32,621 nucleotides of DNA from Opitutus sp. GAS368 (GTDB lineage Bacteria > Verrucomicrobiota > Verrucomicrobiia > Opitutales > Opitutaceae), in NCBI GenBank assembly GCA_945871085.1, contig CAMBVX010000029.1, positions 1 to 32,621 on the forward strand, in the 5' to 3' direction. The translations under genes and the position numbers were made by a program. Position 1 is the first letter of the stretch, and the number at the start of each line of letters is the position of its first letter. This document shows, piece by piece, positions 1,260 to 29,482 of the stretch. The notes below the pieces were generated by a model that ran no database searches, was not told where the DNA came from, and saw only the letters and a list, made by a program, of their open reading frames with translations.

Positions 1260-1331
1260 TGGAAGGATTGGTAAAATGGAATCAAAAGGTGCCTTTGACA
1301 CGATCGTCGGTTCGGGCCACGGCGGGGTCGT

Positions 1332-4349: not shown

Positions 4350-4453
4350 GGCAGGGTTGGTCACGGGGGTGGTCGACGGCGTCGGTCTCCGCGGAGGTGC
4401 GATGTCGGTTGGAATGCTGATCGGGCGGCAGCGCGGAGTGAAGCAAGTCGCTA

Positions 4454-12489: not shown

Positions 12490-13164
12490 CTACGCCAGGG
12501 TGTCGAGCATTCGCTGCTTGCCGGTGATGATGTGGGTCTCGAAGGCGCGGGCCGCCCCGGCCTCGTCGCCGGCGGCAATCGCCTCGAGGATATCGAGGTG
12601 CTGCTGGTTCGACATTCTGGGCCGGGACGTCGCACCGCGGCGCAGGAACAGGAACACCTCGCGTTCGGTGATCGCCGTGAAGTCGATCAACCGCGAGTTG
12701 TTCGAGATCGCGACGATGCAGGTGTGAAAGTCCCGGTTGAGGTCGTAGTAGGCGTCGGAGTTTTCGGTGGCGATCGCGTTCTCCATCGCCTGCCAGAGAC
12801 CGCGCAATTCGGCGACCTGGTCCTTCGTCGCCCGCCGCGCCGCGATCCGACCGGCCACGGAGGCGAGGCCGGCGCGGACGTCGTAGATGTGCATGACCTC
12901 CTCCAATTTGATCTGCCGGACAAAGACGCCGCGGTTATGAATCGCGGTGACGAGCCCCGCTTCCGCCAGCAGGCGGGTGGCTTCACGCACTGGCCCGCGA
13001 CTCACGTTGAGTTTTGCCGCAAGGACGGCCTCGTTGAGACGTTCACCCGCAGCCACTTCACCGCGCAGGATCATCCCTTCGATCTGTTCGCGCACCGAGC
13101 GGGTGAGCGATTCGGGCTTGGGGGGATCGGCAACGACGCGCGCGGGCGACTCGATGGTGTCCAT
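12490..13164 (-). CDS. GntR-family transcriptional regulator, FCD (FadR) type
   Basis: A 224-residue cytoplasmic DNA-binding regulator. The winged helix-turn-helix covers about residues 20-85, with the typical recognition segment LNVSRGPVREATRLLAEAGL. The FCD effector domain fills the rest, with the likely metal or ligand residues D145 and H147 (in NRDFH), H189 (QQHLDIL) and H211 (ETHI). FCD regulators usually sense small organic acids such as sugar acids, lactate or glycolate, and most repress the neighbouring catabolic operon. The gene is divergent from TBDR3 with 196 bases between, where paired inverted repeats are seen at 13255-13283. That makes it the probable regulator of the plus-strand series 13361-25472, which includes two aldolase-family genes and an organic-acid-type transporter. 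Confidence 0.93.
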   Translation of the reverse strand: MDTIESPARVVADPPKPESLTRSVREQIEGMILRGEVAAGERLNEAVLAAKLNVSRGPVREATRLLAEAGLVTAIHNRGVFVRQIKLEEVMHIYDVRAGLASVAGRIAARRATKDQVAELRGLWQAMENAIATENSDAYYDLNRDFHTCIVAISNNSRLIDFTAITEREVFLFLRRGATSRPRMSNQQHLDILEAIAAGDEAGAARAFETHIITGKQRMLDTLA

Positions 13165-13360: not shown

Positions 13361-16300
13361 ATGATCCGCCGAATCGTCGTCCTCGTTCTGTTTGCCGTCA
13401 CATGTCTCAATCCGGCCGCTGCCGCCGAGCCGGGTTCATCCGGTACGATCGAAGGGCGCGTGTACAATGCTGCCACCGGAGCCGTACTGCTCAATGCGCG
13501 GGTGTCGATTGTTGGAACGGGCCGTGAGACCAACACGGACGAGAGCGGCTTCTTCCGGCTTACCGGTGTGCCGGCCGGTGAAGTGCTCGTTGGCGTCCAA
13601 TACTTGGGCTTGGAGCGTCAGACGGTCACCGTCACTCTGCAACCGGGCGGGTCGGTGCAACGATCGTTCGAACTTGCGCGACCCGATTCCGGGGCAACCA
13701 ACGAAGCGGTGGTCCGCCTGGCCAAAGTGACCGTGGTGGCCGACACCAATATGAGCGCTCAGGCGATTGCCATGAACGAGCAACGCGTTTCGGCGGGCAT
13801 CAAGAACGTCGTGGCTTTTGCCGAATATGGGGACCGGGGCCAGGAAAACGTCGGCGAATTCCTGCTTTTTCTGCCAGGCGTATCGGTGGGCATCGCGGGC
13901 GACGCCGGAGCGACTGGCGTATCGCTCCGCGGAATGCCCACGGGCCAGACTGGGATCACGATCGATGGTAATACGCTCGCAGGTGCACGGACCAACGGCC
14001 GGGCCATTGAGTTGCCGGATGTGCCGCTGGCAAATCTCTCCCGGGTCGAGGTGACCAAGGTCCCCACGCCCGACATGTCCGCCGCCGGGCTGGGGGGGGC
14101 GATCAATCTGATCCCATCGAGCGCCTTCGAATACAAGAAGCCGACTTTCTCCTACAATCTATCGACCATTTTTCACAACACCAATGGCGCCACGTTTGAA
14201 TGGCCGCGCCATCATCGGGCGGCCAATTCACCGAAATACACGAAACCGTCCGCGGATTTCACCTACTTTCGGCCGCTGAACGAATCGGTCGCCATCAGTG
14301 TCGGCGCCGCCTACACGTGGCGCACCAAGCCCCTCGACGACAGCAATTCGTCGCGGGATGAGACTCCAACCTGGGATCTTGTCGATCTCTTCCAGCGGTC
14401 CTCCACCTGGTCCACCCGCACGCAACAGTATGTCACCCGTACCGGACAGGTCGGAGTCGTCTGGCGAATCACGCCCCGGACGACGCTCTCGGCCGACTAT
14501 TCCACCAAGGACTACTCCATGATTGTCACCCGCGGGAATCTCAACGTCACCTACGGCGCCGGATCCCGGGGTGACGCCAGATTTACCCAGGGCGCAGCCA
14601 CGGGGGTCGGGCTGGTCGAACAGGGCAGCGGTACCTGGTATGAACGCAAAACCGACACGCAACTGGTGTCGGTGAAACTCCGCAGCACGGGTGAACTCTG
14701 GAAAACCGACGCCGGGTTTTCCTGGTCGCGCTCCACCTGGGGTCTGCCCGACGTCGAGAACGGCCACTTCACCGCCGCGACCGCGAGAATCACCAATCTC
14801 ATCATTCGTGGGGAGGACAACTCTCCGGACGGAATCGCGCGCCGCATCACCGCCACGACCCGCACGGGCACGCCGGTCGATGTTTATAACGGTGGGAATT
14901 ATTCCATCATCAGCGGCACTTCGGCGCAGGAAGACTCGACGACGATCTCCACGGGTGGACGGTTCAATCTCGGCCGACAGTTTACAGGCACGGTGCCGTT
15001 TGCGTTGAAGACCGGAGTTGCCATCGAGCGGATGGACCGGGACCGCCGGCATTCCGCCCGCACCTGGGACTTCCGGCCCAACGGCAACACCACCGAAGAG
15101 GCGCGTCTGGCGAAAAATTTCGACGTCTTTGACGAAAAGTATCTGGCGACCGCCAAGACCATTCACGGCAACCCCTACCGGACCCTCAGCCAGGAAAAAG
15201 TGTATCAACTCTATCAGCAGCACCCCGACTGGTTCGTGCTCAATGCCGCACAGGCTCATCAAAACCGGGCCAACACCTCGCGTCTGTTCGATGAGACCGT
15301 CTCCGCGGCATACATTCGTGGTGATCTTCGCCTGCTGGCCAACCGGCTGTGGCTGATCACGGGAGTGCGACTGGAGAAAACCGATGTGAGCGGCAACGGA
15401 CCGTTGGACGATCCCAGCGCGCAATACCAGCGGTCGGCCAACGGGAACTTTATTCTCGATGCCAGAGGAGCCCGGACCCTGATTCAGACGGATGCCCTGG
15501 GACTCGCGAGACTTCGCTACAAGGAGCGCGGGGCGCATTCGACGAGCAACTACAGTGGCTATTATCCCAGTCTAAGTTCGACCTACACCCTTTCGGAGCA
15601 CTTTGTGTTGCGCGCGGCCTATGCACGCACAATCGGCCGCCCGGACACGAGTTTCATCGTTCCTGGCATCACGATCAGCGATCCTGATATTGCGCAGCCG
15701 ACCATCACCGTCAGCAACATCGGTTTGAAGCCGTGGACCGCCGACAACTACGATCTCACGCTCGAAAGCTATGATTTTAAAGGGGGGTTCGGGCAGATCG
15801 GCGTGTTTCAGAAAAATATCACGGATTTCTTTGGTGCGACCCGGTCCCGCGTTACTCCGGAGTTGCTGCAATTTTACGGGTTGCCCGACGATGGCACCCT
15901 CAGCCAGTACGAATTTGCCGCCCGGACGAACGCCGGCAACGTCACGGTCAAGGGAGTGGAGTTTGGCTACCGCCAGTCCCTCACCTTCCTGCCCCGCTGG
16001 GCGCGGGGGATCCAACTAAACTGGAATTACACCAAACTCTCCACGTCCGGCAGTGCCACCGCCGACCTATCCGGATTTAACCCGAAGAAATATTCCGGCG
16101 GCGTCAGTTTGACTCGCGAGCGATATTCCATGCGGTTGACCTATAGTTTTCAGGACCGGGTGGCGGACAGCGCTGCGGCGGTGAGCGTGGCCAATGGAAT
16201 CCCGGCGAACACCTTCAACTATACCGACGCCTATGCGCGTTGGATTGCCGACGCCCAATATAGTTTCAGCAAACGGTTCACGGTCTACGGCATGCTCAAG

Positions 16301-16423
16301 GACATTGGCGGGCTGCAGGTGCATATGCTCCGCTACACCGCGGGTACGCCGGATTATGCCAGGGGCGCGCGCCTGCAAAAGCTTGGTTATACCTTCACCA
16401 TCGGAGTCAAAGGCACATTCTAA
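13361..16423 (+). CDS. TonB-dependent receptor with carboxypeptidase-regulatory-like N-domain (TBDR3)
   Basis: A 1020-residue outer-membrane receptor. The signal peptide MIRRIVVLVLFAVTCLNPAA is followed by a CarboxypepD_reg-like domain (about 28-105, with GTIEGRVYNAATGAVLLNAR and FRLTGVPAGEV) and a TonB-box-like segment VRLAKVTVVA. The plug carries NVGEFLLFLPGVSVGIAGDA, VSLRGMP and VEVTKVPTPDM, and the barrel ends VKGTF. It is the first gene of the plus-strand series and a clear paralogue of the genes at 20473 and 26312-29482. All three share an unusually conserved segment before the plug (MS-x-QA-x-AMNEQR and IKNVVA). A glycosidase-like propeller gene and an RraA-family aldolase gene follow. 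Regulation by the divergent GntR protein is likely. The substrate is unknown. Confidence 0.94.
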   Translation: MIRRIVVLVLFAVTCLNPAAAAEPGSSGTIEGRVYNAATGAVLLNARVSIVGTGRETNTDESGFFRLTGVPAGEVLVGVQYLGLERQTVTVTLQPGGSVQRSFELARPDSGATNEAVVRLAKVTVVADTNMSAQAIAMNEQRVSAGIKNVVAFAEYGDRGQENVGEFLLFLPGVSVGIAGDAGATGVSLRGMPTGQTGITIDGNTLAGARTNGRAIELPDVPLANLSRVEVTKVPTPDMSAAGLGGAINLIPSSAFEYKKPTFSYNLSTIFHNTNGATFEWPRHHRAANSPKYTKPSADFTYFRPLNESVAISVGAAYTWRTKPLDDSNSSRDETPTWDLVDLFQRSSTWSTRTQQYVTRTGQVGVVWRITPRTTLSADYSTKDYSMIVTRGNLNVTYGAGSRGDARFTQGAATGVGLVEQGSGTWYERKTDTQLVSVKLRSTGELWKTDAGFSWSRSTWGLPDVENGHFTAATARITNLIIRGEDNSPDGIARRITATTRTGTPVDVYNGGNYSIISGTSAQEDSTTISTGGRFNLGRQFTGTVPFALKTGVAIERMDRDRRHSARTWDFRPNGNTTEEARLAKNFDVFDEKYLATAKTIHGNPYRTLSQEKVYQLYQQHPDWFVLNAAQAHQNRANTSRLFDETVSAAYIRGDLRLLANRLWLITGVRLEKTDVSGNGPLDDPSAQYQRSANGNFILDARGARTLIQTDALGLARLRYKERGAHSTSNYSGYYPSLSSTYTLSEHFVLRAAYARTIGRPDTSFIVPGITISDPDIAQPTITVSNIGLKPWTADNYDLTLESYDFKGGFGQIGVFQKNITDFFGATRSRVTPELLQFYGLPDDGTLSQYEFAARTNAGNVTVKGVEFGYRQSLTFLPRWARGIQLNWNYTKLSTSGSATADLSGFNPKKYSGGVSLTRERYSMRLTYSFQDRVADSAAAVSVANGIPANTFNYTDAYARWIADAQYSFSKRFTVYGMLKDIGGLQVHMLRYTAGTPDYARGARLQKLGYTFTIGVKGTF

Positions 16424-16485
16424 TCCGGACTCTTCACACCTCGGCGTGAAACCTACACACACTGTTGCTCACTCGCTCCAAGTCT

Positions 16486-16646
16486 TGTCATTGCGAGAGC
16501 TGGACCAATACCGGGCCGTTGGGTGGAAGTTGCCGATGAAACATTTCCCTGATCTGTCATTGCGAGCGAGGCTTGCCGAGCGTGGCAATCCATCGTCGGT
16601 TTCACCTTGGATTGCCGCAGTCGGCTGAACCTCCTTCGCAATGACA
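16486..16646. repeat. REP-like TGTCATTGCGAG palindrome between TBDR3 and glycosidase gene
   Basis: The arm 16555-16592 (starting TGTCATTGCGAGCGAGGCTT) and the arm 16608-16646 (ending CTCCTTCGCAATGACA) are near reverse complements and can form a hairpin of about 38 base pairs with mismatches and a 15-base loop. An extra half unit TGTCATTGCGAG lies at 16486-16497. This palindrome type is widespread between bacterial genes. Here it sits inside a probable operon. Confidence 0.85.
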
Positions 16647-16747
16647 AACAAGAGTGCGAAATATCCTGGCTATCCCCAATGACCATGCATCCATTCCCCT
16701 CCCGAAACGACTCCGAGCCGGCAGATTTGATTTGGAATTCCCGGCCG

Positions 16748-18478
16748 ATGGCGGGCAGGCCCGCATGGCAGGACGTTTCAGGGCATGCGCCGCTTTTCAG
16801 GCGGCGTGGCGGGCAGGCTTTGGTCATCGCCCTGCTGGGAATGGCGGGCGTTTGTTTTGGCGTATCCAACGCAGAATCTGCCCAACCGGCCAAGGGAGAG
16901 ATGCTCTACAACGGCATCGTGCTGCCGGAAGTGTGGCCGCCGCGTGATCGCGATCCCGCCTCGCGGACGCCGATGCCGGTGCCGTATCTCGCCGCCCGGC
17001 CCGCCGTGGTGCCGATCGACACCGGCCGGCAGTTGTTCATCGACGATTTTCTCGTCGAGAAAACGACGTTGCGGCGAACCTTTCACACCCCGCAGAAATT
17101 TGCCGGCAATCCGATCCTCAAGCCGAAGAACTCCTACGAATTGCACGGCGGTCATCGCCCCGCTGCCGCGCCCCATTCCGGCGGCGCGTGGTATGACCAT
17201 CGCGACCAGCTTTTCAAGATGTGGTATATGACGGGTTGGTATGGCGGTGCCGCCCTCGCGCACAGCCGAGATGGTCTGACCTGGACCCGTCCGGATCTCG
17301 GCATTGTGCCGGGCACCAATCATATTCCGGACCCGAATCCGGAGATGCGCTGGGGAATGGACCACGTTCGCATCGACTGGTGGGCGCGCAACGAGGACGA
17401 GCGTTTCAAGCGGCTGCACTTTTATCACAAGACGGACAAAGGCGAAGGCGGGCGCGTCCACTTCTCGCGGGATGGCGTGCACTGGACCGCATCCGTCGCC
17501 GCCACCGGGCCGTCCGGCGATCGAAACACGTTTTTCTACAATCCGTTTCGAAAACGCTGGGTGTTCAGCATCAAGGTGCAGGCAACCGACGCTTCCAAAT
17601 CGCGGGCTCGCAACTACTGGGAGCATGCGGATTTCCTTTCAGCCGTCCGGTGGAAAAAAGATGACCCGGTGTTCTGGATGGGCGCCGACGATTTGGATCC
17701 GCCCGATCCCGCGGTTGGCGATCCCGCGCAGATCTATGATCTCGACGTGGCGCCGTATGAGAGCCTGCTCGTCGGAATCTTTCAGGTGCACAAGGGGCCG
17801 GCCAACTCTATCGCTGAAAAGAACCGCGTCCCGAAAATGACCGAGCTCTCCATCGGTTATACGCGCGACGGTTTCCACTGGCACCGGCCAGTCCGAACCC
17901 CGTTCATCGCCGCGTCGCGCAAGCCCGGCGATTGGGAGCGCGCGTATGTTCATTCCACGGGCGGCGTGCTGCTGGTGGTCGGCGACAAGCTCCACATCTA
18001 CTACTCCGGACTGAGCGGCGACGCGCCCAACGGTCCCGACATGTATGCCGGAGGCTCGACGGGAGTCGCGTTTTTGCGCCGGGACGGATTTGCGTCGATG
18101 GATGCCGGTGACACCGAAGGCGGGCTGACGACCCGCCCGCTGCGGTTCTCCGGCGCGCACCTGTTCGTCAATGTGGAGGCGCCCCAGGGGGCGGTGCGCG
18201 CCGAGGTAATCGACGCTGCCGGCAAACCGATCCCGCCGTTTACGCTACAGAACAGCGTCGCCTTCACCGGCGACAGTACGCGTCAACGCCTGCAATGGCG
18301 GGGCGCGGACAGCCTGGCGCCACTCGCCGGCAAGGAAGTTCGGATCCGCTTCCAGTTGCGAAACGGGAAGCTGTTTTCGTTTTGGGTGACGCCCGATGCA
18401 GAGGGATTCAGCCGCGGGTACGTGGCCGCGGGCGGGCCGGGACTGCGCGGTCCGGTGGATTCATCGACCGGGTTCTGA
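16748..18478 (+). CDS. Secreted five-bladed-propeller glycosidase-like protein (GH32/GH43-like fold)
   Basis: From the ATG at 16748 the product is 576 residues. The frame is open further upstream, with an ATG at 16679 and a TTG at 16607, but that part runs into the repeat element. The chosen start gives a signal peptide with a basic stretch (FRRRGG) before ALVIALLGMAGVCFG. The N-terminal block VPIDTGRQLFIDDFLV, the propeller motif LFKMWYMTGWYGGAALA, the block NPFRKRWVFSIK and the C-terminal beta-sandwich-like part ending [11 protein letters not shown] match the paralogue at 7225-8886. The protein should act outside the cytoplasm on a glycan. It stands between TBDR3 and the first RraA-family gene, 26 bases before the latter's start. 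The exact reaction and catalytic residues are unknown; the start is the least certain part. Confidence 0.82.
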   Translation: MAGRPAWQDVSGHAPLFRRRGGQALVIALLGMAGVCFGVSNAESAQPAKGEMLYNGIVLPEVWPPRDRDPASRTPMPVPYLAARPAVVPIDTGRQLFIDDFLVEKTTLRRTFHTPQKFAGNPILKPKNSYELHGGHRPAAAPHSGGAWYDHRDQLFKMWYMTGWYGGAALAHSRDGLTWTRPDLGIVPGTNHIPDPNPEMRWGMDHVRIDWWARNEDERFKRLHFYHKTDKGEGGRVHFSRDGVHWTASVAATGPSGDRNTFFYNPFRKRWVFSIKVQATDASKSRARNYWEHADFLSAVRWKKDDPVFWMGADDLDPPDPAVGDPAQIYDLDVAPYESLLVGIFQVHKGPANSIAEKNRVPKMTELSIGYTRDGFHWHRPVRTPFIAASRKPGDWERAYVHSTGGVLLVVGDKLHIYYSGLSGDAPNGPDMYAGGSTGVAFLRRDGFASMDAGDTEGGLTTRPLRFSGAHLFVNVEAPQGAVRAEVIDAAGKPIPPFTLQNSVAFTGDSTRQRLQWRGADSLAPLAGKEVRIRFQLRNGKLFSFWVTPDAEGFSRGYVAAGGPGLRGPVDSSTGF

Positions 18479-18493
18479 TGCCGCAGTCATCCG

Positions 18494-18498
18494 AAGGA
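18494..18498 (+). promoter_or_regulatory. Ribosome binding site AAGGA deciding the first RraA start
   Basis: AAGGA lies 6 bases before the ATG at 18505. This supports MTTNL as the true N-terminus rather than the in-frame ATG at 18478, which overlaps the preceding stop codon (TGATG). The paralogue at 23550 also begins MTTNL. Confidence 0.7.
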
Positions 18499-18504
18499 CT
18501 TTTC

Positions 18505-19161
18505 ATGACCACCAACCTTTCGACGGCGCTGCTTTCCAAGTTGGAGCCTGTGGCCGATTCCGCCCTGTTGCACGAGGCGCTCGGCCGGCGCGGGGCTCTG
18601 AGTCACGACATCAAGCCGGTGTATCCGGGGGCCCGGCTCATCGGGCGCGCCCTGACGGTGCGTTGCCCGCCGGGCGACAACCTGATGCTGCATCTCGCCA
18701 TCGCCCGGGCCCGGCCGGCGGACGTGCTCGTGGTGACGGTCGACGGCTTTTTGGAGGCGGGAGGGTGGGGCGAGATCGCGTCGCTCGCCGCGCAACTGCG
18801 TGGAATCAGCGGACTCGTATTGGATGGATCCGTACGTGACGTGGACGCGATCACTCGGCTGAACTTCCCGGTCTTCTCGCGCGGGGTCTCGATCAAGGGG
18901 ACCACCAAGCGGCAGCGGGGCGAGTTGAACCGGCCGATCACGATCGGGGGCGTCAGCGTGAATCCGGGCGACTATGTGGTCGGCGACACCGACGGCGTGG
19001 TGGTGATCCCGGCGGACGAATTGGACCCGGTGATCGCCCGGGCCCATGAGATCAAGCGGACGGAAGAGGCGATGATGGATAAACTGCGGCAGGGGGCGTC
19101 GACGCTCGATCTGCTCGGGTTGCGGCCGGTTTTGCACGAGCTGGGCATTCAATCCGACTGA
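18505..19161 (+). CDS. RraA-family protein (HMG/CHA aldolase-like), copy 1
   Basis: A 218-residue cytoplasmic protein of the RraA/HMG-CHA aldolase fold, older name dimethylmenaquinone methyltransferase-like. The block GGWGEIASLAAQLRG is followed by LVLDGSVRDVD. The Glu of WGE and the Arg-Asp of VRD are spaced E-x20-R-D, the pattern of the pyruvate- and metal-binding site in class II pyruvate aldolases of this family. GDTDGVVVIP near the C-terminus is also typical. Enzymatically active family members cleave 4-hydroxy-4-methyl-2-oxoglutarate-type compounds to pyruvate or decarboxylate oxaloacetate. An RNase E-inhibitor role as in E. coli RraA is unlikely in this context. It is about 78 percent identical by ungapped hand alignment to the copy at 23550-24206. 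The neighbours are a secreted glycosidase-like gene and a BNR gene, so the substrate may be a keto-acid made from a released sugar acid. Confidence 0.9.
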   Translation: MTTNLSTALLSKLEPVADSALLHEALGRRGALSHDIKPVYPGARLIGRALTVRCPPGDNLMLHLAIARARPADVLVVTVDGFLEAGGWGEIASLAAQLRGISGLVLDGSVRDVDAITRLNFPVFSRGVSIKGTTKRQRGELNRPITIGGVSVNPGDYVVGDTDGVVVIPADELDPVIARAHEIKRTEEAMMDKLRQGASTLDLLGLRPVLHELGIQSD

Positions 19162-19196
19162 CTTCCGCCATTTCAACCCGCAGCAACGATTTTCCG

Positions 19197-20399
19197 ATGA
19201 TTTGCATGTCACACCCCGCCCTTTTTTCGGCCCGATCGCACCGCCGTTTCGGCGCGTGGCTTGCAAGCGTGCCCTGGCTCGTCGCGACGGTTTTGGCGAC
19301 TCCGGCCGGAACGGCGCCGGATATCCGGATCACACCCGGGGACGTCCCGAACAAGGGTATCCTCTACGTGAATCGCGAGGCCGACGGTCGCTCCGGCCAC
19401 GGCAACCAGGCGCTCACCGAGTGCACTAATGGCGACATCCTTTCGTTCTATCCCAACACGGACAGCGAGGTGATGGCGGGCCACAGCACCACGGGTTGGA
19501 CGGAGTATCGGCGATCCAATGACGGCGGACGGACCTGGTCGGCGCCGACCGTCCTCGACTACTCGAAGGCGATGCTCCTGAGCAAGGAACTCAACTCCGC
19601 TGTGGTCGAGGAGGCCGTCACCGCGTCTAATGGAACGGTCATCGCCTTCATCGGCCGCTATATCACGGCCGAGTGGTGGCGCACGACGCCGGTGTATCTG
19701 ACGAGTCGTGACAACGGGAAAACCTGGAGCGCACCCCGTCCGGTGGATCCGGCCGCCGGAATCGCGCACCTCGGGCGCGCGCATGGGGTCTGTGTTCATC
19801 AGGGCACGATCTATGTGTTGTTCGATTCCGGCACGCACAACTCGAAGAAGGACGGCACGGGTCACAAGCTGTATGTCTCCACCGACAATGGTGAATCGTT
19901 CCAGTTGCGTAGCGCCCTGCCTTTTGGCGAACTGGCGTGGTACGGCACGATGAACGTGATTCAGGGTAAGCGGCTCATCGCGTACGTTTACAACAACGCC
20001 GACGAACGGAATATCGAGTACGCGACCAGCGATGATTTAGGCCGCACGTGGTCGGCGGTGAAGACCACGCTGGTCGCGAAGGCGCTGCGCAATCCACAGC
20101 TCTCCAGCGAAATCAACGGGACCTATTTTCTTCACGGCCGGAGCGGGCATCAGGGTCCCGACGCGTGCAACCTGGTGCTCTACCGCTCCACGGACGGCGT
20201 TCATTGGGACGAGGGCGTTTTCCTGAACAAGGGCCCGAACAACGACTCCGACTCGTATTCCACCAATGAAGTACTCGGGAAATATTCCCCCGGCGGCCCG
20301 CAGCGTCTCCTGATTCAAGCGAGCGTCGCCTACGACGGCAAACGACGCGTCAACCTGCATCACTGGTTTGTCGAATCCACGGCGCGCGCCCGCCCGTAG
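19197..20399 (+). CDS. Secreted BNR/Asp-box propeller protein, separate subfamily
   Basis: A 400-residue protein, starting at the ATG at 19197 or nine bases later at 19206 (MSHP). The N-terminal region has a hydrophobic stretch WLASVPWLVATVLATPAGTA and is a probable signal peptide. Asp-box-type repeats are SNDGGRTW, SRDNGKTW, STDNGESF, SDDLGRTW and STDGVHW. It lacks the RRLASG and YPDGFQ blocks of the three genes near TBDR1 and lacI, so it belongs to a different BNR subgroup. It lies 35 bases after the first RraA-family gene and 73 bases before TBDR4, and is probably transcribed with them. A role as an exported glycan-cleaving or glycan-binding propeller is inferred; the substrate is unknown. 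Confidence 0.87.
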   Translation: MICMSHPALFSARSHRRFGAWLASVPWLVATVLATPAGTAPDIRITPGDVPNKGILYVNREADGRSGHGNQALTECTNGDILSFYPNTDSEVMAGHSTTGWTEYRRSNDGGRTWSAPTVLDYSKAMLLSKELNSAVVEEAVTASNGTVIAFIGRYITAEWWRTTPVYLTSRDNGKTWSAPRPVDPAAGIAHLGRAHGVCVHQGTIYVLFDSGTHNSKKDGTGHKLYVSTDNGESFQLRSALPFGELAWYGTMNVIQGKRLIAYVYNNADERNIEYATSDDLGRTWSAVKTTLVAKALRNPQLSSEINGTYFLHGRSGHQGPDACNLVLYRSTDGVHWDEGVFLNKGPNNDSDSYSTNEVLGKYSPGGPQRLLIQASVAYDGKRRVNLHHWFVESTARARP

Positions 20400-20472
20400 T
20401 CGCACCCGTCACCGCTGCGGCCGTCTGCCTGCATCACAAGTCCAGTAAGAGTTTTTGAAACCCCGGAACCCC

Positions 20473-23400
20473 ATGAAGAGAAATCGAACCCTTGTCTGTC
20501 TGATCGCCCGGATCGCCCTGATGGTCCTCGCCCTCCCAACTTCCCGTGCGGCGGAGTCCGGCGCCGGCGCCGTGGAAGGGCGTGTCTTCAATGCCGCCAC
20601 GGGCGCCGCGCTCGCCAACGCGCGCGTTGCTCTCGAGGGCACGGATCGCCAGGTGGTCACCGATGGAACCGGCTCATTTCGTTTCAACGGCGTTCCCGCC
20701 GGCGAGGTGCGTGTCTCCGTCCACTATGTCGGGCTGGCCTCCCAGTCCGCGGCTGTGCAAGTTCCGCCCGGCGGCACCGTGCAGCGCGAGTTCGATCTCA
20801 CACCCGCGGGTGCGACCGCCGGCACCGCGGGCGAGGTCGTGCGGATGGATAAGTTCAAAGTTGTCGAGGAGAGCCAGATGAGCCTGCAGGCGCTGGCAAT
20901 GAACGAGCAACGTTCCGCCCCGAACATCAAGAACGTCGTCGCGGCCGACGAGTTCGGGGATCGCGGCCACGAGAATCTCGGCGAGTTCCTGCATTTCCTC
21001 CCCGGCGTGGCGGTCGACGTGCCGGGCGATTCGGGCCCGGCGTCGGTTTCACTGCGGGGTTTCCCCTCGAACAATTCCGGCGTGTTGCTCGATGGCGCCG
21101 AAGTGGCGGGCGCACGCTCCAACACCCGCGCCCTCGACTTGCATGACGTGCCGATGGTGAACGTCTCGCGCGTCGAGGTGACGAAGGTTCCGACACCCGA
21201 CATGCCGGCCACCGGCCTCGGCGGCTCGATCAACCTGATTTCGCGCAGCGGATTCGAGAACCGGCGCGCGGTGCTTTCCTACGAACTGTACACGCTGCTC
21301 AACAGCAACAACGGCTTCACCTTTCGCGGCGGTCACCGTAACCAGTCCGATTCCGTCTCTCCCCGTTTCGTCCATCCCTCGTTTGAGATCAACTACCTGA
21401 AGCCGATCAACAAGTCGCTCGCCATCACCGCCGGGTTCTCGAGCACGTGGCGGATGAAAACCCACAGCGCCGACGCTCGCGACGAGATTCCGACCTGGAA
21501 CCTCGTGAGCGGCGTGCAGCGCGACAGCGTGTGGCAGGCGCCCATCCAGCTTTACAAGTCGGGCTCCGGTCAGGTGGGCGCTGAGTGGAAAATAACGCCG
21601 AACGACACCCTGAGCGCCAACCTCCAGTATCGGGAGTTTTCGATGGAGGTTCACCGTAGCCGCATGCAGGTCACCTACGGCGCGGGCGTGGTGGGGGACG
21701 CAAAATTCAGCCAGGGTGCGGCCACCGGGGTCGGCGTGGCGACGCAGGGCACGGGCTCGGAATACGAGCACAAGACCAACAACCGGCAGGCCGCGCTCCG
21801 GTTCCGGCATAACGGCGGCGTCTGGCGCTTTGACGCGTCCGGTTCCCATTCGCTCGCGAACTACGCGAAGGCCGATGTGGACGACGGATATTTCTTCACC
21901 GTCCCGGCGACGATCCAGAATCTCGTGATTCGCGGCGACGGCATCCCGGAAGGGGGTGGCGTGCCGACGAGGTACAGCGCCTTCTCCCGTACGGGAGGGG
22001 CGGTCGACATCTACGACGGCGCGAACTATTCGATCGACACGGCGACCAGCAACCAAATCGACAACGACACCGCAAAATCCGCCGCGCGGATGGACCTGGC
22101 GCGCGACTTCGCGACCACGGTGCCGGTGACCGTAAAGGTCGGCGCGTCGATCGATCGCATGACGCGCGATGCCCGGACTTTTTCCAAGACGTGGAGTTTC
22201 CGGCCGAACGGCGCGAGCGACGTGACGGCGCGGCTGGCGCGTAACTTGGATGTGTTCGACGAAGCTTTCCTGGCCGTCGCCCCCAAAGTCTATGGCGTGC
22301 AGCTGCGCGACGTGAGCATGAGGAAAATCTATAACCTTTTTCTGGAGCATCCCAACTGGTTCGTGCTCGACGAACCGGGCGCATACCAGAGCTTCGTGAC
22401 CAGCTCGCGCGAATTCCAAGAAACCGTCACGGCCGGCTACGTTCGCGCCGATGCGCGCATGTTCAAAAACCGGCTTTGGGTGGTGAGCGGTGTTCGCTTC
22501 GAACAGACGGACGTGTCGGGCCGCGGTCCGCTCGATGACATCAACGCGCAGTATCAGCGCAATGCCAACGGCACGTTCGTGCGCAACGCCGCGGGTCAGC
22601 GCGTGCTCATCACCAGTGACGCGCTTGCGCTCCGGAAACTTCGTTACACGGAGCGCGGCGCCCACGCCGAGAGCGACTATCACGGGTTCTATCCCAGCCT
22701 GAACGCCACCTACAACCTCTCCGACCATTTTGTGCTGCGCGGCGCGTACGCGCGCACGCTCGGGCGGCCCGACACCAGTTTCATCACGCCGGGCACCACG
22801 GTTTCCGATCCGGACGTCGCCAATCCCACCATCACCGTCAACAACCCGGCGCTCGTGCCCTGGACGGCGGACAACTACGATCTCTCGATCGAGTCGTATA
22901 ATTTTAAGGGCGGTTTTGGGTCGGTCGGGGTGTTCCAGAAAAACATCAGGGACTTCTTCGGTTCCGTGCGCACGCGCGTCACGCCGGAGCTGCTCGCGCT
23001 CTACGGGCTGCAGAACGACGGCAGCCTGTCGAACTACGAAATCGCGACGCAGGACAACGTGGGTGACGCGAAAATCACTGGCGTGGAGTTCAACTACCGG
23101 CAGTCGCTGACGTTTCTCCCTGCGTGGGCGAACGGGTTTCAGATCTTCGTGAACGCGACCAAACTGCGGCTCTCGGGCAGCACGACCGCGGATTTCACCG
23201 GATTCAATCCGAGCAAGCTGGCGGGCGGCGTGAATTTCATCCGCGCGCGGTACTTCATCAAACTGAACTACAGCTATCAGGGCGAGACCCGGCGTGCGGC
23301 CGTCGGGGCCAACGCCGCCAACGGCATTCCGGCCGGCACTTACAATTACCAGGGCAAACGGGCGCGCCTGGGTATCAGCGCGCAATATAGTGTCTCCAAA

Positions 23401-23550
23401 CGGCTCTCCGTTTACGCTTCAATCATGGACCTCGGCGGCTTTGAGCTCCTCAATCGTCAATACGCCGCCTCCACCCCGGAGTATGCGCGCGGCAACCGGA
23501 TTCAGGAACTTGGTTACTACACCACCCTTGGGATCAAAGGTTCATTCTAA
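20473..23550 (+). CDS. TonB-dependent receptor with carboxypeptidase-regulatory-like N-domain (TBDR4)
   Basis: 1025 residues from the ATG at 20473; an in-frame weak start lies six codons upstream. The signal peptide MKRNRTLVCLIARIALMVLA is followed by a CarboxypepD_reg-like domain (GAVEGRVFNAATGAALANAR, FRFNGVPAGEV) and a TonB-box-like VVRMDKFKVVEE. The plug shows NLGEFLHFLPGVAVDVPGD, VSLRGFP and VEVTKVPTPDMPATGLGGS, and the barrel ends GIKGSF. It is a close paralogue of TBDR3 along its whole length, including AMNEQR and IKNVVA before the plug. The stop codon overlaps the start of the second RraA-family gene (TAATG), which suggests translational coupling of an outer-membrane receptor with a cytoplasmic enzyme. 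It belongs to the GntR-linked plus-strand series. Confidence 0.94.
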   Translation: MKRNRTLVCLIARIALMVLALPTSRAAESGAGAVEGRVFNAATGAALANARVALEGTDRQVVTDGTGSFRFNGVPAGEVRVSVHYVGLASQSAAVQVPPGGTVQREFDLTPAGATAGTAGEVVRMDKFKVVEESQMSLQALAMNEQRSAPNIKNVVAADEFGDRGHENLGEFLHFLPGVAVDVPGDSGPASVSLRGFPSNNSGVLLDGAEVAGARSNTRALDLHDVPMVNVSRVEVTKVPTPDMPATGLGGSINLISRSGFENRRAVLSYELYTLLNSNNGFTFRGGHRNQSDSVSPRFVHPSFEINYLKPINKSLAITAGFSSTWRMKTHSADARDEIPTWNLVSGVQRDSVWQAPIQLYKSGSGQVGAEWKITPNDTLSANLQYREFSMEVHRSRMQVTYGAGVVGDAKFSQGAATGVGVATQGTGSEYEHKTNNRQAALRFRHNGGVWRFDASGSHSLANYAKADVDDGYFFTVPATIQNLVIRGDGIPEGGGVPTRYSAFSRTGGAVDIYDGANYSIDTATSNQIDNDTAKSAARMDLARDFATTVPVTVKVGASIDRMTRDARTFSKTWSFRPNGASDVTARLARNLDVFDEAFLAVAPKVYGVQLRDVSMRKIYNLFLEHPNWFVLDEPGAYQSFVTSSREFQETVTAGYVRADARMFKNRLWVVSGVRFEQTDVSGRGPLDDINAQYQRNANGTFVRNAAGQRVLITSDALALRKLRYTERGAHAESDYHGFYPSLNATYNLSDHFVLRGAYARTLGRPDTSFITPGTTVSDPDVANPTITVNNPALVPWTADNYDLSIESYNFKGGFGSVGVFQKNIRDFFGSVRTRVTPELLALYGLQNDGSLSNYEIATQDNVGDAKITGVEFNYRQSLTFLPAWANGFQIFVNATKLRLSGSTTADFTGFNPSKLAGGVNFIRARYFIKLNYSYQGETRRAAVGANAANGIPAGTYNYQGKRARLGISAQYSVSKRLSVYASIMDLGGFELLNRQYAASTPEYARGNRIQELGYYTTLGIKGSF

Positions 23551-24206
23551 TGACAACCAACCTAGCGCCAGCGTCGCTTTCGGAGCTTGAGGCCGTGGCC
23601 GATGCCGCACTTTTGCACGAGGCGATGGGGAAGCGCGGCGCCCTGACTCACAATATCAAGCCGGTCTATCCGGGAGCCAAGGTGTTCGGCCGCGCGTTTA
23701 CCGTGCGCTGTGAGCCCGGCGATAACCTCATGCTGCACCTGGCGATCAGCCAGGCGCGGCCGGACGATGTGCTCGTCGCCACCACGGGCGGCTTTCTCGA
23801 GGCCGGAGGCTGGGGCGAGATCGCCTCGCTCGCCGCGCAACTCCGGGGCATCCGTGGTCTGGTGCTGGATGGTTCGGTGCGCGACGTGGACGCGATCGCG
23901 CGGCTGAATTTTCCCGTGTTCGCCGGGGGCGTGTCGATCAAGGGCACGACCAAACGGAAACGGGGTGAACTCAACCGGCCGATTACGGTCGGTGGCGTCA
24001 CCGTGAACCCGGGCGACTATGTCGTGGGCGACACGGACGGCGTGGTGGTGGTGCCCGCAGGTGAACTGGATCAGGTGGTCGCGCGGGCGCAGGCGATTAA
24101 AAAAACGGAGGAGACGATCATGCAGCGATTGCGACAGGGCGAACTGACGCTGGATTTGCTCGGCCTTACTCCCGTGTTGAAAGAACTGGGACTCGACCAG
24201 GAATGA
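23550..24206 (+). CDS. RraA-family protein (HMG/CHA aldolase-like), copy 2
   Basis: 218 residues, the same length as the copy at 18505-19161 and about 78 percent identical to it without gaps. The catalytic pattern is kept: WGE-x20-RD in GGWGEIASLAAQLRG and DGSVRDVDAI, plus PGDNLMLHLAI and GDTDGVVVVP. Its ATG overlaps the TBDR4 stop by one base, and only 6 bases separate its stop from the MFS gene, so all three are one transcriptional unit. The expected activity is a metal-dependent pyruvate aldolase or oxaloacetate decarboxylase in the cytoplasm; the substrate is unproven. Differences between the copies cluster near the termini, where specificity or oligomer contacts may vary. Confidence 0.91.
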   Translation: MTTNLAPASLSELEAVADAALLHEAMGKRGALTHNIKPVYPGAKVFGRAFTVRCEPGDNLMLHLAISQARPDDVLVATTGGFLEAGGWGEIASLAAQLRGIRGLVLDGSVRDVDAIARLNFPVFAGGVSIKGTTKRKRGELNRPITVGGVTVNPGDYVVGDTDGVVVVPAGELDQVVARAQAIKKTEETIMQRLRQGELTLDLLGLTPVLKELGLDQE

Positions 24207-24212
24207 CTAACC

Positions 24213-25472
24213 ATGAAATATCGCCACCGGCTCCTCGGCTTCCTCGGAGTCTTTGCCGTCATCACGTTTGTTGATCGCGTCTGCATTTCGGTCGCGGCGA
24301 AGGAAATTCAGGCTGATCTCGGACTGAATCCGGCGCAATGGGGCTGGGTGCTGGGCGCGTTCGTGCTCGCCTACGCGATTTTTGAGATTCCGACCGGAGC
24401 CATGGCCGATCGCCTGGGGCCGCGCCGGGTGATGACGCGGATCGTGATCTGGTGGTCCGCATTCACGGCGTTGAGCGGCATGGTCACCGGTTTCTGGTCG
24501 TTGGTGACGGCGCGCTTTCTTTTCGGGGCGGGCGAGGCGGGCGCGTATCCGAACTGCTCGGCGGCAATCGCGCGCTGGTTCCCCAAGGTCGAACGGGCGC
24601 GGGCGCAGGGATTTGTCTGGATGGCGAGCAAGCTCGGCGCCGGCCTCTCGCCGTTGCTCGTGATCCCGATTCAGCAGGCCTACGGGTGGCGCATGGCCTT
24701 TTTTGTGTTCGGTCTGGCCGGGATTGCTTGGGCCGTGGTGTGGTATTGGTGGTTTCGTGACACGCCGGCGGAGAAGGACGGAGTCACCGAGGCGGAACGG
24801 GCTGAGATTGGGGCGGCGCCGTCGGCGGGGAGCCATCAGCCCCTCCGGTGGCGGGTGGCCCTGTCACGCCCGAACCTGTGGTGGCTGATGCTGATGTACC
24901 ACACGCATTGCTGGTCGGCTTTCTTCTTTCTCACCTGGCTGCACATCTTTCTCGAGAACGGTCGCGGCTACACCAAGGCCGACCTTTTACAACTCTCCTG
25001 GATTCCTTTTGTCTGCGGGGCGGCGGCGAATCTCGCGGGTGGCATCGTCAGCGATCTGCTGGTCAAACGGATCGGGCTGAAATGGGGCCGCCGCACCGTC
25101 GGCTTGGTCGGGCACGGGGTGTCGGCGGGGTTCCTGGCGGCGGCGCTGTTGACCCAGGACAAAGGGTGGACGGTCGCGTTTCTCGCGCTGGCGTATGCCG
25201 GTTCCGATTTCATGCTCCCGGTGGCCTGGGCGGTCTGTCTCGACATCGGCGGAAAACACGCGGGCGCGGTGACCGGGGCGATGAACACGGCCGGGCAGTT
25301 TGGTTCGTTTCTCACCACGGTCATTTTCGGCCATATTGTGGGTGCCTATGGCAGCTACGACCTACCGCTGATTCCCATCGTGGTGATGTCGGTGATCAGT
25401 ACCGTCGTCTGGTTAAAGATCGATCCGACCGTGCCGCTCTTCCCAGAACCGGCGCCGCCGGTCCGGACGTAG
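24213..25472 (+). CDS. MFS transporter, anion:cation symporter (ACS) type
   Basis: A 419-residue inner-membrane protein with about twelve hydrophobic segments. Diagnostic motifs are the DR pair at residues 21-22 in TM1, the MFS loop motif GAMADRLGPRR (62-72), and the ACS-type block GEAGAYPN (107-114) followed by RWFPKVERARAQG (121-133). ACS members are proton- or sodium-coupled importers of organic anions such as hexuronates, galactarate, glucarate or tartrate. Here the gene ends the GntR-linked operon directly after an RraA-family aldolase gene, so the imported compound is probably a sugar acid or a related carboxylate. No terminator could be seen after the stop; repeats and gene remnants follow. 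Confidence 0.92.
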   Translation: MKYRHRLLGFLGVFAVITFVDRVCISVAAKEIQADLGLNPAQWGWVLGAFVLAYAIFEIPTGAMADRLGPRRVMTRIVIWWSAFTALSGMVTGFWSLVTARFLFGAGEAGAYPNCSAAIARWFPKVERARAQGFVWMASKLGAGLSPLLVIPIQQAYGWRMAFFVFGLAGIAWAVVWYWWFRDTPAEKDGVTEAERAEIGAAPSAGSHQPLRWRVALSRPNLWWLMLMYHTHCWSAFFFLTWLHIFLENGRGYTKADLLQLSWIPFVCGAAANLAGGIVSDLLVKRIGLKWGRRTVGLVGHGVSAGFLAAALLTQDKGWTVAFLALAYAGSDFMLPVAWAVCLDIGGKHAGAVTGAMNTAGQFGSFLTTVIFGHIVGAYGSYDLPLIPIVVMSVISTVVWLKIDPTVPLFPEPAPPVRT

Positions 25473-25910: not shown

Positions 25911-25976
25911 CCGGCCTGCGCCCCGATGCAACGGTTGACCGTTGACGGCTCAGCGAAGTGGTCGCGGCCAGCGGGG

Positions 25977-26033
25977 AGGCGCTTTCCAAGCGCCTAGATT
26001 GGTCGGCCGGCATTGCGGCGGTTGGAAACCGCC
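25977..26033. repeat. Paired hairpins AGGCGCTTTCCAAGCGCCT and GGCGGTTGGAAACCGCC
   Basis: Two perfect hairpins (25977-25995 and 26017-26033) lie 21 bases apart in inverted orientation. Their stems differ by a compensatory C-G/G-C swap around a common TTTCCAA loop sequence when one is reverse-complemented. This is the form of a REP doublet. No T-run follows, so a simple terminator is less likely. Confidence 0.75.
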
Positions 26034-26311: not shown

Positions 26312-29300
26312 TTAGTACCGGCCTTTCAGGCCTGTGACGATATAGTATCCGTTCGTCTGGTTCCGGGTGTAGCGCGCGTAGTCCGGAGTTGAGGGCGCGT
26401 ACTGCATCGTGATCCACGACCGGCGGCCCAGATCCGTCGCTCCCAGGAAGACGGTGCAATGTTTTTTGAGGCTGTATTCCGCCTCGACGCCGTAGCGCTT
26501 GTACTTGTTCTGGTACGCGAAGGTATTGGGCAGCTCCGTGGCACTCGCGTTGACCGCACTGGTGGCGAAGCCGTCCTGATAGACATAGGTGAATTTCACA
26601 AGGTACCGCGGACGGATGAAATTCAATCCTGTGCTGAAGCTCATCGGCACGAAACCAGAGAAGTCGGCGAGTCGCCCGCCTTCGAGCCGGAGCTTGGTGA
26701 TATTCGCGTTCAACTGCAGGCTTTTGAGCAGTCCCGGCAGGAAGAAAAGCTGCTGGCGATAGCTGAACTCTACGCCGCGCACCCGGGCGTTGCCCGCGTT
26801 CTCCATCGTGCGGAACTGGTAGCCGTTGTAGGTGCCGTCAGTGGGCAACCCCTGCTGGTTGAGCAATTCTTCGGTGACCGGTGTCTGCACCGAGCCGAAG
26901 AAATCCCGCACGTCCTTCTGGAAAAAGCCCACCGCACCGGAGCCGCCCTTCACGTCGTAGACCTCGAACGTCAGATCGTAGTTGTCCGCGGTCCAGGGAC
27001 GCAGCCCGGGATTGTTGACCGTGATCGTCGGGTTCGTCGCCTCCGGATCGCTGATCGTGGTCCCGGGGATCAGCAGGTTCACGCCGGGACGTCCGATCGT
27101 CTGCGCGTACGCCGTCCGCGCGACAAAATGATCCGAAACGCGGTAGCTCGCGTTGATGCTTGGATAATAACCGTGGTAGTTGCTGTGGGTCGACGCCCCG
27201 CGCTCTTTGTAGCGCAGCCGGCGCAGCGTGAGCGCGTCGTTCGTGAGGAGAACGCGGGCGCCGGCGGCGGTGCGCACGAAGCTGCCGTCCGGATTCCGCT
27301 GATACTGGGCGTTGATGTCATCCAGCGGACCCTTCCCCTTGATGTCGGTTTCCTCCAGTCGCACGCCGCCCACCACGGTCAACCGGTCCTGCAGGAGCCG
27401 CAGGTCACCCCGTAGATAGGCGGCCGAGATCGTCTCCGTAAACTCGAACGAGCCGGTGACCTGGTTCTGGTGGGCGCCCGGTTCGTCGAGGACAAACCAG
27501 GACGGGTTCCTCAGGTACAGATCGTACATTTTCGTGTGACTGATGTCCCGCAGGGCATGGCCGTAGACCTTCGGCGCAACCCGCAGGTAGTCCTCGTCGA
27601 AGACGTCGAAGTTGCCGGCGCGCAGGGCTGGGGCGTTCGAAGCCCCGTTGGGCCGGAACGTGTAGGTGAACGAGCGATTGCGCTGCGCGCGTTCCTGCTG
27701 GTCCGAGGCCACGCCGAACTTCAGGGCGAACGGGACGATGGCGTTGAACTCGCGGCTGCCGTTGGCCCGCACAAACGAATTTTCGGAAAACGTGCGCCGG
27801 CTGCGGGCCACCGCCGAGTTGATCGTATAGTCTTCGCCCTTGAAGATGTCGACCGGCGCGCCCGTCCGGTCCCGGACGGTGTACTGCCGCGCGATGCCGG
27901 TCCGGAAGATGTCGTCGCCGCGGATGACCAGGTTCGTGAGCTGCGCATTGATCGTGGTGAAATAGCCGTTGTCGGCGTCGTGCTCCTGGTACCGGGCGGC
28001 GGAAAGCCCGCCATCCAGATCAAAGCGCCAGAGGTCGCCGCGGTGCGCGTATTTCAGGTTGAGCTGCTGCTGCTTTGAATCGCGTTGGTAGATGCCGGAG
28101 CCTCCACCCATCGCCGTCGATCCGACGCCGGTCGCGGCCCCCTGGGTGAACGTTTCGCCGCCGGTCGCGCCCGCGCCGTACGTCACGGCCAGGCGGCTGC
28201 GCGAGACGTCGTAAAGGTAGTTCTTCATCTCGCCGCTGATCGAGACGAGGTCCCGGGACGTTGGCTTCCAGGCAAAACCCAGCTGCCCGCCGTACGTCTG
28301 CGTCCAAGCCATGAGCGACTGCCATGCGCCGGCCGTCTGGATGTTGCGGCCGCGATCCCACGTCGGCTGGACGTCAAGTTCCTTGATCCCATTGTACGAA
28401 GGATTGAGCCGCCACGTGTTGTACAGACTCGCCGTGACCGCGAACCGCTCGCTGAGGGGCCCCTGGTAACTCACATTGGCCGAGGGCAGGGTGTAGCGTG
28501 GCGACGCATCGGGGTTCGGCCCGCGATTCCACCGCATCGAGGCTCCGTTCGTGTTGTGGAACAGGGTCGAGACGCGGTAGTTCAAGACGCGTTTTTTCAC
28601 CTCGAAGCCGTTGCTTGGAATCAGATTGATCGATCCGCCGAGTCCGGACGCACGCTGGTCCGGTGTCGGCACCTTGGTGACCTCGACGCGTGACACGTTG
28701 GAGAACGGCACGTCCGTCGTGGTGGCCTGGCGGTTGGTGCCGCGCGCCGTCGCGACGGAGCCGCCGTCGATGGTGACATTGGAGAAACTCGGGGAGAATC
28801 CGCGCAAGGATGCGCCGTTGGGGCCGACGTCACCGTCGATCGAGACGGACACGCCCGACAGGAATTGCAGGAACTCCCCCAGGTTCTCGTCCCCGCGATT
28901 GCCAAACTCATCCATCGCGACGACGTTCTTGATGTTCACCGCGGCCCGTTGCTCATTCATCGCCAGCGCCTGTGCGCTCATCTCGCGTTCGGCGGTCACC
29001 TGAAACGTCGCCAGCTCCACCACCTGATCGCCGCTCTTTTCGCCGGCGACCGCCGCGCGCGCCAGGTCGACCGTCAGGCGAGTCACGGCTCCCGCCGAAG
29101 CCGAAGCGATTTCGGTCTTCGTCGCCATGCCCGCGTACGACACGCTCACCCGGACTTCACCCGGCGGAACGTTCGTGACCCGGAATTCCCCGCTTGCATC
29201 CGAATACGCCGTGAGTCCGCCCGGCGTAATGGTGATGCGGGCGTTCCCGAGCGCCACGCCGCTGGTCGCGTTGAACACGCGACCCTCCAGGACGCCTGCG

Positions 29301-29482
29301 CCCTGGGTGGCCGGGGCGGCGGCGGGCGCGCGCTCCACCCCCGCGATGGGCAGCGCCACGATCACCGCCATCAGACGGAATGCACGCCAGCGGGTGCCGA
29401 AAGACCGTTGGGCCGAAACGGACGGAACGACGGAGAGGTTACCGACGGAGGCCGGCGACAGAAATAGCAGACGGATTTTCAT
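26312..29482 (-). CDS. TonB-dependent receptor with carboxypeptidase-regulatory-like N-domain (TBDR5)
   Basis: 1056 residues from the ATG at 29482. A shorter start at 29374 (MAVIVALPIAGVERAPAAA) would give a more usual signal peptide. The open frame continues far upstream but runs through the neighbouring BNR gene in another frame, so that extension is not real. It has a CarboxypepD_reg-like domain (GVLEGRVFNATSGVALGNAR, FRVTNVPPGEV), a TonB-box-like VVELATFQVTAE, and a plug with NLGEFLQFLSGVSVSIDGD, ASLRGFSP and VEVTKVPTPDQ. The barrel ends GLKGRY. It is a paralogue of TBDR3 and TBDR4 but linked to the LacI-side group. It follows a BNR gene after 167 bases that contain its own operator-like half site (29583-29593), so it can be transcribed with that gene or alone. 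Confidence 0.93.
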   Translation of the reverse strand: MKIRLLFLSPASVGNLSVVPSVSAQRSFGTRWRAFRLMAVIVALPIAGVERAPAAAPATQGAGVLEGRVFNATSGVALGNARITITPGGLTAYSDASGEFRVTNVPPGEVRVSVSYAGMATKTEIASASAGAVTRLTVDLARAAVAGEKSGDQVVELATFQVTAEREMSAQALAMNEQRAAVNIKNVVAMDEFGNRGDENLGEFLQFLSGVSVSIDGDVGPNGASLRGFSPSFSNVTIDGGSVATARGTNRQATTTDVPFSNVSRVEVTKVPTPDQRASGLGGSINLIPSNGFEVKKRVLNYRVSTLFHNTNGASMRWNRGPNPDASPRYTLPSANVSYQGPLSERFAVTASLYNTWRLNPSYNGIKELDVQPTWDRGRNIQTAGAWQSLMAWTQTYGGQLGFAWKPTSRDLVSISGEMKNYLYDVSRSRLAVTYGAGATGGETFTQGAATGVGSTAMGGGSGIYQRDSKQQQLNLKYAHRGDLWRFDLDGGLSAARYQEHDADNGYFTTINAQLTNLVIRGDDIFRTGIARQYTVRDRTGAPVDIFKGEDYTINSAVARSRRTFSENSFVRANGSREFNAIVPFALKFGVASDQQERAQRNRSFTYTFRPNGASNAPALRAGNFDVFDEDYLRVAPKVYGHALRDISHTKMYDLYLRNPSWFVLDEPGAHQNQVTGSFEFTETISAAYLRGDLRLLQDRLTVVGGVRLEETDIKGKGPLDDINAQYQRNPDGSFVRTAAGARVLLTNDALTLRRLRYKERGASTHSNYHGYYPSINASYRVSDHFVARTAYAQTIGRPGVNLLIPGTTISDPEATNPTITVNNPGLRPWTADNYDLTFEVYDVKGGSGAVGFFQKDVRDFFGSVQTPVTEELLNQQGLPTDGTYNGYQFRTMENAGNARVRGVEFSYRQQLFFLPGLLKSLQLNANITKLRLEGGRLADFSGFVPMSFSTGLNFIRPRYLVKFTYVYQDGFATSAVNASATELPNTFAYQNKYKRYGVEAEYSLKKHCTVFLGATDLGRRSWITMQYAPSTPDYARYTRNQTNGYYIVTGLKGRY

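Follow-up and report, generated by a model that had tools for sequence, protein, structure and literature searches.

In the carbohydrate utilisation (CUT) loci of Proteobacteria, TonB-dependent receptors (TBDRs), degrading enzymes, an inner-membrane importer and a regulator are united in one locus without SusD. The same assembly is found on a stretch of 32,621 nucleotides (hereafter the window) from Opitutus sp. GAS368, a freshwater Opitutaceae bacterium, in which seven plus-strand genes under a divergent regulator (right operon) are neighboured by minus-strand genes that would belong to a second, left operon. This locus differs from CUT loci in its propellers, which are of the sialidase fold or unclassified, and in its end enzymes, which represent two unrelated families of class II pyruvate aldolase type. 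The sialic acid (nan) loci are alike in having a sialidase-fold enzyme, an acid importer and a pyruvate-releasing aldolase, but the aldolase here is of RraA or HpcH/HpaI type and not NanA, and no amino-sugar genes were seen. With the 4-hydroxy-4-methyl-2-oxoglutarate/4-carboxy-4-hydroxy-2-oxoadipate (HMG/CHA) aldolase of protocatechuate 4,5-cleavage (structure 3noj), the RraA proteins of the window share the RraA fold, most active-site residues and a passed NCBIfam model, whereas no LigB-type ring-cleavage enzyme was found in the genome and the genes sit in a TBDR locus. Finally, polysaccharide breakdown has already been linked in print to an enzyme of the RraA family: FlDet, from the FlDet/FlDeg alginate branch of Flavobacterium sp. 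UMI-01, differs from the proteins studied here in being, as PMC8563752 describes it, a dehydratase/decarboxylase giving alpha-ketoglutaric semialdehyde; its gene lies next to one for an alginate lyase, and its identity to HMG/CHA aldolase is 20%.

The explanation that we prefer, and to which as a whole we give an even chance, is that the window holds the larger part of one catabolic locus built of parallel acid-uptake and pyruvate-aldolase operons, whose reaction and substrate we infer. The TBDRs of each operon would take up oligosaccharides, propeller enzymes (sialidase-fold BNR_2 proteins and the propA/propB family) would release an acidic monosaccharide, and this acid would enter the cytoplasm through an anion-type symporter and be cut into pyruvate and an aldehyde by a class II pyruvate aldolase. 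For the last two steps the right operon would use an ACS-type major facilitator superfamily (MFS) transporter and RraA, of which a local duplication has given two copies, and the left operon an SBF-family symporter and an HpcH/HpaI aldolase together with an APH-family kinase. Since two neighbouring operons are alike in TBDR, propeller, anion-type importer and aldolase type, they point to polymers releasing a 2-keto-3-deoxy-4-hydroxy acid or a close precursor, and as the operon proteins scanned include no dehydrogenase or dehydratase of the usual sugar-acid route, the acid probably has this form on arrival. A 3-deoxy-2-ulosonic acid such as Kdo (3-deoxy-D-manno-oct-2-ulosonic acid) or Dha (3-deoxy-D-lyxo-hept-2-ulosaric acid) would fit best and is our best, unproven guess.

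If this is true, part of the RraA family gains a defined place in glycan breakdown, two unrelated aldolase families fill the same place in neighbouring operons, attention is drawn to a propeller family, common in Verrucomicrobiota, for which Pfam has no entry, and a testable route is obtained by which keto-sugar acids of algae and pectin may be consumed, as it is the pairing of the two aldolase families that makes the substrate prediction testable.

Order and conservation of the right operon

The right operon was outlined in an earlier note on the window, and all its genes were found where that note had placed them: a GntR/FCD regulator (12490..13164, minus strand, Pfam match) divergent from TBDR3 (13361..16423, plus strand like all genes that follow; Pfam match, TIGR01782 283.9 bits, below the cut-off of 310), the glycosidase-like propeller propA (about 16748..18478, its start taken from comparison with locus L051), RraA1 (18505..19161), the divergent BNR_2 propeller BNR_d (19197..20399, Pfam BNR_2 1.8e-21), TBDR4 (20473..23550), RraA2 (23550..24206) and the ACS-type MFS gene (24213..25472). 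The order of the gene calls thus stood and one start did not, RraA1 opening at 18505 and not inside the propeller gene; its mechanically called open reading frame (ORF) begins at 18295, and 18505 was chosen since it aligns with the start of RraA2. From propA to the MFS gene the intergenic gaps run from -1 (a one-base overlap) to 73 bases, TBDR3 and propA are separated by a stretch of about 320 bases in which a palindrome-like repeat was read, and the genes of the operon are presumably co-transcribed. Promoter and terminator scans gave no more than in shuffled sequence.

The module of TBDR plus RraA is indeed present twice, as had been proposed, and the identities between RraA1 and RraA2 (78%) and between TBDR3 and TBDR4 (53%, with TBDR5 at 47% and 49% respectively) therefore indicate a local duplication and not two independent pairings. 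The order GntR regulator, TBDR, propA, RraA, MFS recurs in the genome G122 with identities of 64-80% (74% for the regulator, at the same place), where the operon continues past the MFS gene with a D-2-hydroxyacid dehydrogenase and then a relative of BNR_c. In L051, from an Opitutaceae metagenome-assembled genome (MAG), TBDR-propA-RraA-MFS recurs at 79-95%, with the TBDR partly on the contig, which is short and without a GntR gene. Because the core order recurs in both, the module is more than chance, and the claim of a coherent operon is borne out by this conservation. A GntR operator common to the window and G122 was sought and rejected, the longest common word being 11 bases.

The single RraA gene of L051 (2620-3276) is a mosaic at the DNA level, its blocks following copy 1, 2, 1 and 2 in turn over the 165 sites that differ between RraA1 and RraA2. 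This suggests exchange between RraA copies together with loss of the BNR_d-TBDR4 segment, a pattern that a chimeric MAG contig could also produce.

The RraA proteins and the neighbours of their relatives

Both RraA proteins look like class II pyruvate aldolases. The NCBIfam model NF006731 (PRK09262, CHA aldolase/oxaloacetate decarboxylase; cut-off 179 bits) is passed by RraA1 with 190.2 and by RraA2 with 194.8 bits, the stricter ligK_PcmE model gives 179.8 and 186.3 bits, below its 304.5, and the closest solved structure to RraA2 is 3noj with 142.6 bits. When mapped through the printed alignment, the 3noj active-site positions N71, H75, R123, D124, G144, T145 and K147 are kept in both copies, seven of the nine checked being thus retained in RraA2, and most of the residues expected of an HMG/CHA-type class II pyruvate aldolase are therewith present. 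Variants at the mapped active-site positions, except D124, have been measured earlier according to PMC5065237.

Alternatively, RraA1 and RraA2 could be RNase-regulator-like proteins or promiscuous oxaloacetate decarboxylases that accompany the operon and take no part in the pathway, given that the RNase E regulator of E. coli has the RraA fold, that HMG/CHA aldolase is reported to decarboxylate oxaloacetate as well (PMC5065237) and that TBDR genes are so common that adjacency alone is cheap. However, the RNase E regulator models stay far from their cut-offs (NF006875, 66.3 and 70.5 against 136 bits; TIGR02998, 36.2 and 43.4 against 241.25 bits) while the aldolase model is passed, the gene order is conserved in G122 and L051, and both copies have been kept, with signs of sequence exchange, which leaves this alternative very improbable in our view. 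Aromatic catabolism by protocatechuate 4,5-cleavage was also considered and rejected: a LigB ring-cleavage dioxygenase match occurs in none of the three genomes searched, which speaks against an aromatic role of RraA.

The main rival is a uronate route, to which the GarL/GarR handling of 2-keto-3-deoxyglucarate is the background. Polymers such as alginate or pectin would be converted into unsaturated uronates by enzymes coded elsewhere, the acid oxidised to 2-keto-3-deoxyglucarate, and RraA would act as a FlDet-like dehydratase/decarboxylase or as an aldolase whose product, tartronate semialdehyde, is reduced in turn by GarR-/GhrB-type enzymes. The closest RraA relatives around which no TBDR was found, those of G023 (68%) and of the Phycisphaerae locus L052 (57%), stand beside Ldh_2 and a 2-hydroxy-3-oxopropionate-reductase-like protein, and that of G122 beside the D-2-hydroxyacid dehydrogenase, so that the layout without a dehydrogenase proposed for the window does not extend to these relatives; neighbours of this type leave room for a substrate of the 2-keto-3-deoxyglucarate type. 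The best NCBIfam matches of the HpcH protein in the propA-family locus L218 are likewise GarL-type models, below cut-off, and the precedent of FlDet, a member of the RraA family encoded next to an alginate lyase (PMC8563752), makes the route a serious rival. On the other hand, no lyase family was found among the 17 window proteins scanned, and the aldolase that RraA2 matches with 142.6 bits is the P. putida enzyme, to which FlDet is given as only 20% identical (PMC8563752). We accordingly rate the uronate route as rather unlikely.

Further RraA relatives were found at 55% (L055) and 47% (L053). The trio of RraA, Ldh_2 and HIBADH-type genes is common to the Phycisphaerae MAG (L052, 9980-12739) and an Opitutaceae genome (L041, 6815-9558). 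In the literature, no paper was found tying Verrucomicrobia to an RraA-type aldolase.

The left operon, the propellers and the proposed acid

The proposal of parallel operons for acid uptake draws its second line of evidence from the left end of the window, where BNR0 (3..1301, minus strand), a BNR_2 (sialidase-fold) propeller (Pfam BNR_2 4.9e-31), stands behind TBDR1 (1332..4364, minus strand, Pfam plug and barrel). At window base 1 the contig breaks off within a longer locus, which is continued for 7.4 kb in a sister contig, G182:C45, 99.4% identical to window positions 1-32245. Directly past BNR0 and in the same direction this sister contig encodes a symporter of the SBF family, a kinase of the APH family and a member of the HpcH/HpaI aldolase family, so that the left operon would be TBDR1-BNR0-SBF-APH-HpcH, cut by the contig edge. 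The lack of a kinase stated by the earlier note is consequently an effect of this edge and true of the right operon only, the kinase gene of the sister contig lying just outside the window, and the locus as a whole has three class II pyruvate aldolase-type genes, which belong to two unrelated families. The idea of the same note that a polymer yields an acid cleaved to pyruvate is favoured by the conserved operon, the aldolase-like RraA, the acid-type importer and the unrelated pyruvate-aldolase-type gene in the neighbouring operon, and as an interpretation it is partly supported.

The SBF-APH-HpcH trio also occurs on contigs C626 and C111 of the genome to which the window belongs, and contig C268 of that genome has SBF and APH with BNR, propA-type, TBDR and LacI genes. 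Twenty propA-family loci, being the best matches of searches in the family and the phylum, mostly one per genome with G122 represented twice, were compared: an HpcH relative is present within the stretch examined in six (L206, L207, L209, L210, L213 and L218), five of which also have SBF and APH, as against none of 60 RraA loci (L143-L202) and one of 35 loci of another set (L067, 38%). In L207 the order propA-HpcH-MFS parallels propA-RraA-MFS, its HpcH (31%) and MFS (27%) being distant. Literature on HpcH/HpaI with TonB-dependent uptake, ulosonic acids or polysaccharide yielded only unrelated work, as judged from titles and the beginnings of abstracts.

For propA itself no Pfam or NCBIfam match was obtained at E<=0.001, and 41 relatives gave weak matches alone, all with E>=0.0005 (for example PF24067 in two and a beta-1,2-mannobiose phosphorylase model in ten). 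A profile of these relatives searched against the PDB retrieved glycosidase and phosphorylase structures, namely 1,2-beta-oligomannan phosphorylase, beta-1,2-mannobiose phosphorylase and fructofuranosidase/invertase, which we take to have a five-bladed fold; the best whole-sequence E is 3.3e-09, with single stretches weak, and from these matches propA may be a glycan-degrading enzyme. The family has matches in 55 of 240 genomes of the phylum, none of its relatives was confirmed in viral contigs, and the window holds a paralogue, propB (7225..8886, minus strand, 49%). Of seven long propA homologues scanned, taken from the 13 with at least 700 amino acids, five carry an N-terminal BNR_2 domain (L117, L122, L126, L127 and L109, not L120 and L097), a fusion that links the two propeller types.

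Besides BNR0 and BNR_d, the BNR_2 propellers comprise BNR_b (4547..5770, plus strand, 52% identical to BNR0) and BNR_c (5910..7145, minus strand), which matches sialidase structures of glycoside hydrolase (GH) family 33, a family with a catalytic Glu and an Arg triad. In the alignment of BNR_c with 4fj6 one Glu and a later Arg line up, the alignment stopping short of the first Arg and being ambiguous at the second. A protein of L206, one of the sibling loci, scores 33.3 bits with the Pfam BT_1020 propeller model, above its cut-off of 27 (structure 5mqr), and BT1020 itself has a role in Dha release. Export is presumed from hydrophobic N-termini read by eye. The activities given for GH33 include sialidase, Kdo hydrolase and KDNase (PMC9120202).

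The nearest solved structure to the MFS protein is the D-galactonate transporter DgoT (6e9n, 2.4e-40), followed by vesicular glutamate transporter 2 and sialin; the D-galactonate transporter model TIGR00893 is matched with 251.6 bits, below its cut-off of 395, and the protein is probably an acid importer, the direction of transport being presumed. Sources of a suitable acid have been described: chlorodendrophyte thecae have Kdo, its 5-O-methyl form and Dha as main sugars (PMC6930497), the side chains of rhamnogalacturonan II contain Kdo and Dha (PMC12282258, PMC12168206), and an Opitutaceae isolate is reported with GH143 among its pectin enzymes (PMC12613999). A dedicated scavenging of Kdo/Dha-type acids from algal thecae or pectin in freshwater Verrucomicrobiota, with the acid freed by an unclassified propeller family and sialidase-fold enzymes and with two unrelated aldolase families in the same place of twin operons, is possible on these grounds; we put it forward tentatively and with considerable doubt.

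A number of observations weigh against the proposed uptake and cleavage of such an acid. Position R195 of 3noj aligns to Ile in both RraA proteins, and R40 is Arg in RraA1 and Lys in RraA2. The first Arg of the GH33 triad was not found in BNR_b or BNR_c, and BNR_d seems to be without the Glu/Arg stretch of these two (both read by eye), while an AlphaFold2 model of propA built with four sequences gave a pLDDT (predicted local distance difference test) of 35 and was not used. HpcH-like proteins are widespread, with matches in 120 of 200 family genomes; of the 13 listed with at least 54% identity, six lie on one contig with a listed propA match, no more than about 12 kb from it (G182, G054, G006, G140, G046 and G122), and three come from genomes without any propA match (G091, G160 and G005). 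The C111 trio stands at a contig edge with no propeller or TBDR3-type match in its 18.4 kb. As the right operon does not depend on a link between HpcH and propA, these results leave the odds of the preferred explanation unchanged. The HpcH protein of L218 scores well short of the cut-offs of all named aldolases, and the APH kinase is without a clear place in the scheme. Moreover, 14 of the 20 propA loci show no HpcH in the stretch examined and stand by sulfatase, esterase and fucosidase genes (among 84 ORFs scanned, six sulfatases, three SASA esterases, a fucosidase and other GH genes, with 25 of 82 families listed). With such surroundings propA belongs to a wider glycan-related family, and its presence alone does not imply an acid of this kind.

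These same sulfatase, fucosidase and other GH genes would suit a locus in which the propellers free a neutral sugar that is oxidised and dehydrated by enzymes coded elsewhere, RraA handling the resulting keto acid, and G122 has in addition a nucleoside hydrolase and, read by eye, a rhamnose-isomerase-like gene. The importers, however, are of anion type (DgoT-like MFS and SBF) and not of sugar type, and no sugar dehydrogenase or dehydratase was found among the window proteins scanned, for which reasons we consider a neutral sugar quite improbable.

Receptors, SusD and the setting of the contig

The window has a TBDR, a degrading enzyme, an importer and a regulator in one conserved cluster, as is characteristic of a SusD-free TBDR carbohydrate locus, and it is without the SusC/SusD pair of a Bacteroidota-type polysaccharide utilisation locus. 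The absence of SusD, earlier taken as a distinguishing mark, is ordinary for the family: PF07980, the sole SusD model searched, matches in none of 200 family genomes, which were sampled evenly out of a larger group, nor in the genome of the window. SusD absence was therefore rejected as a novelty, and this aspect alone has no significance.

A general pairing of TBDR and RraA genes did not hold up either when adjacency was counted across genomes. Among 60 further RraA loci (L143-L202, in rank order of the RraA search), a TBDR-like ORF lies within 2.5 kb of RraA in five (L151, L162, L172, L175 and L195), a lower bound since the receptors were sought by BLAST against five TBDRs, and on this count adjacency was rejected as a general rule. 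Of seven other RraA loci outside the module (G023, L043-L048), one has a nearby TBDR, namely L048, which is the third RraA of the same genome. That genome has at least 150 TonB plug-domain matches in one MAG (Opitutus terrae is credited by another method with 16 receptors; PMC3422733), and with TBDRs so many that a random gene often has one near, it is the conserved operon and not adjacency that constitutes evidence.

The window is the entire contig C29 of this MAG of 7.37 Mb and 630 contigs. Because the 99.4% identical sister contig belongs to G182, which the genome collection assigns to another genus, it is doubtful that both bins are right, and one of them has probably been given this contig in error.

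The remaining genes are TBDR2 (9054..11438, minus strand, Pfam plug 3.6e-11), TBDR5 (26312..29482, minus strand) and a LacI regulator (31237..32268, plus strand) that is 66% identical to the LacI of the sibling locus L209. A tRNA-Gly of 91 bases called by ARAGORN at 25952-26042 has no Rfam match at gathering score and is probably false. A solitary 80-base copy (99%) of the LacI gene start lies at 26135-26214 (original 31232-31311), a LacI remnant and a sign of past rearrangement, and a 204-base repeat (84%) is found upstream of TBDR2 (11503-11706) and again between TBDR5 and LacI (30968-31171).

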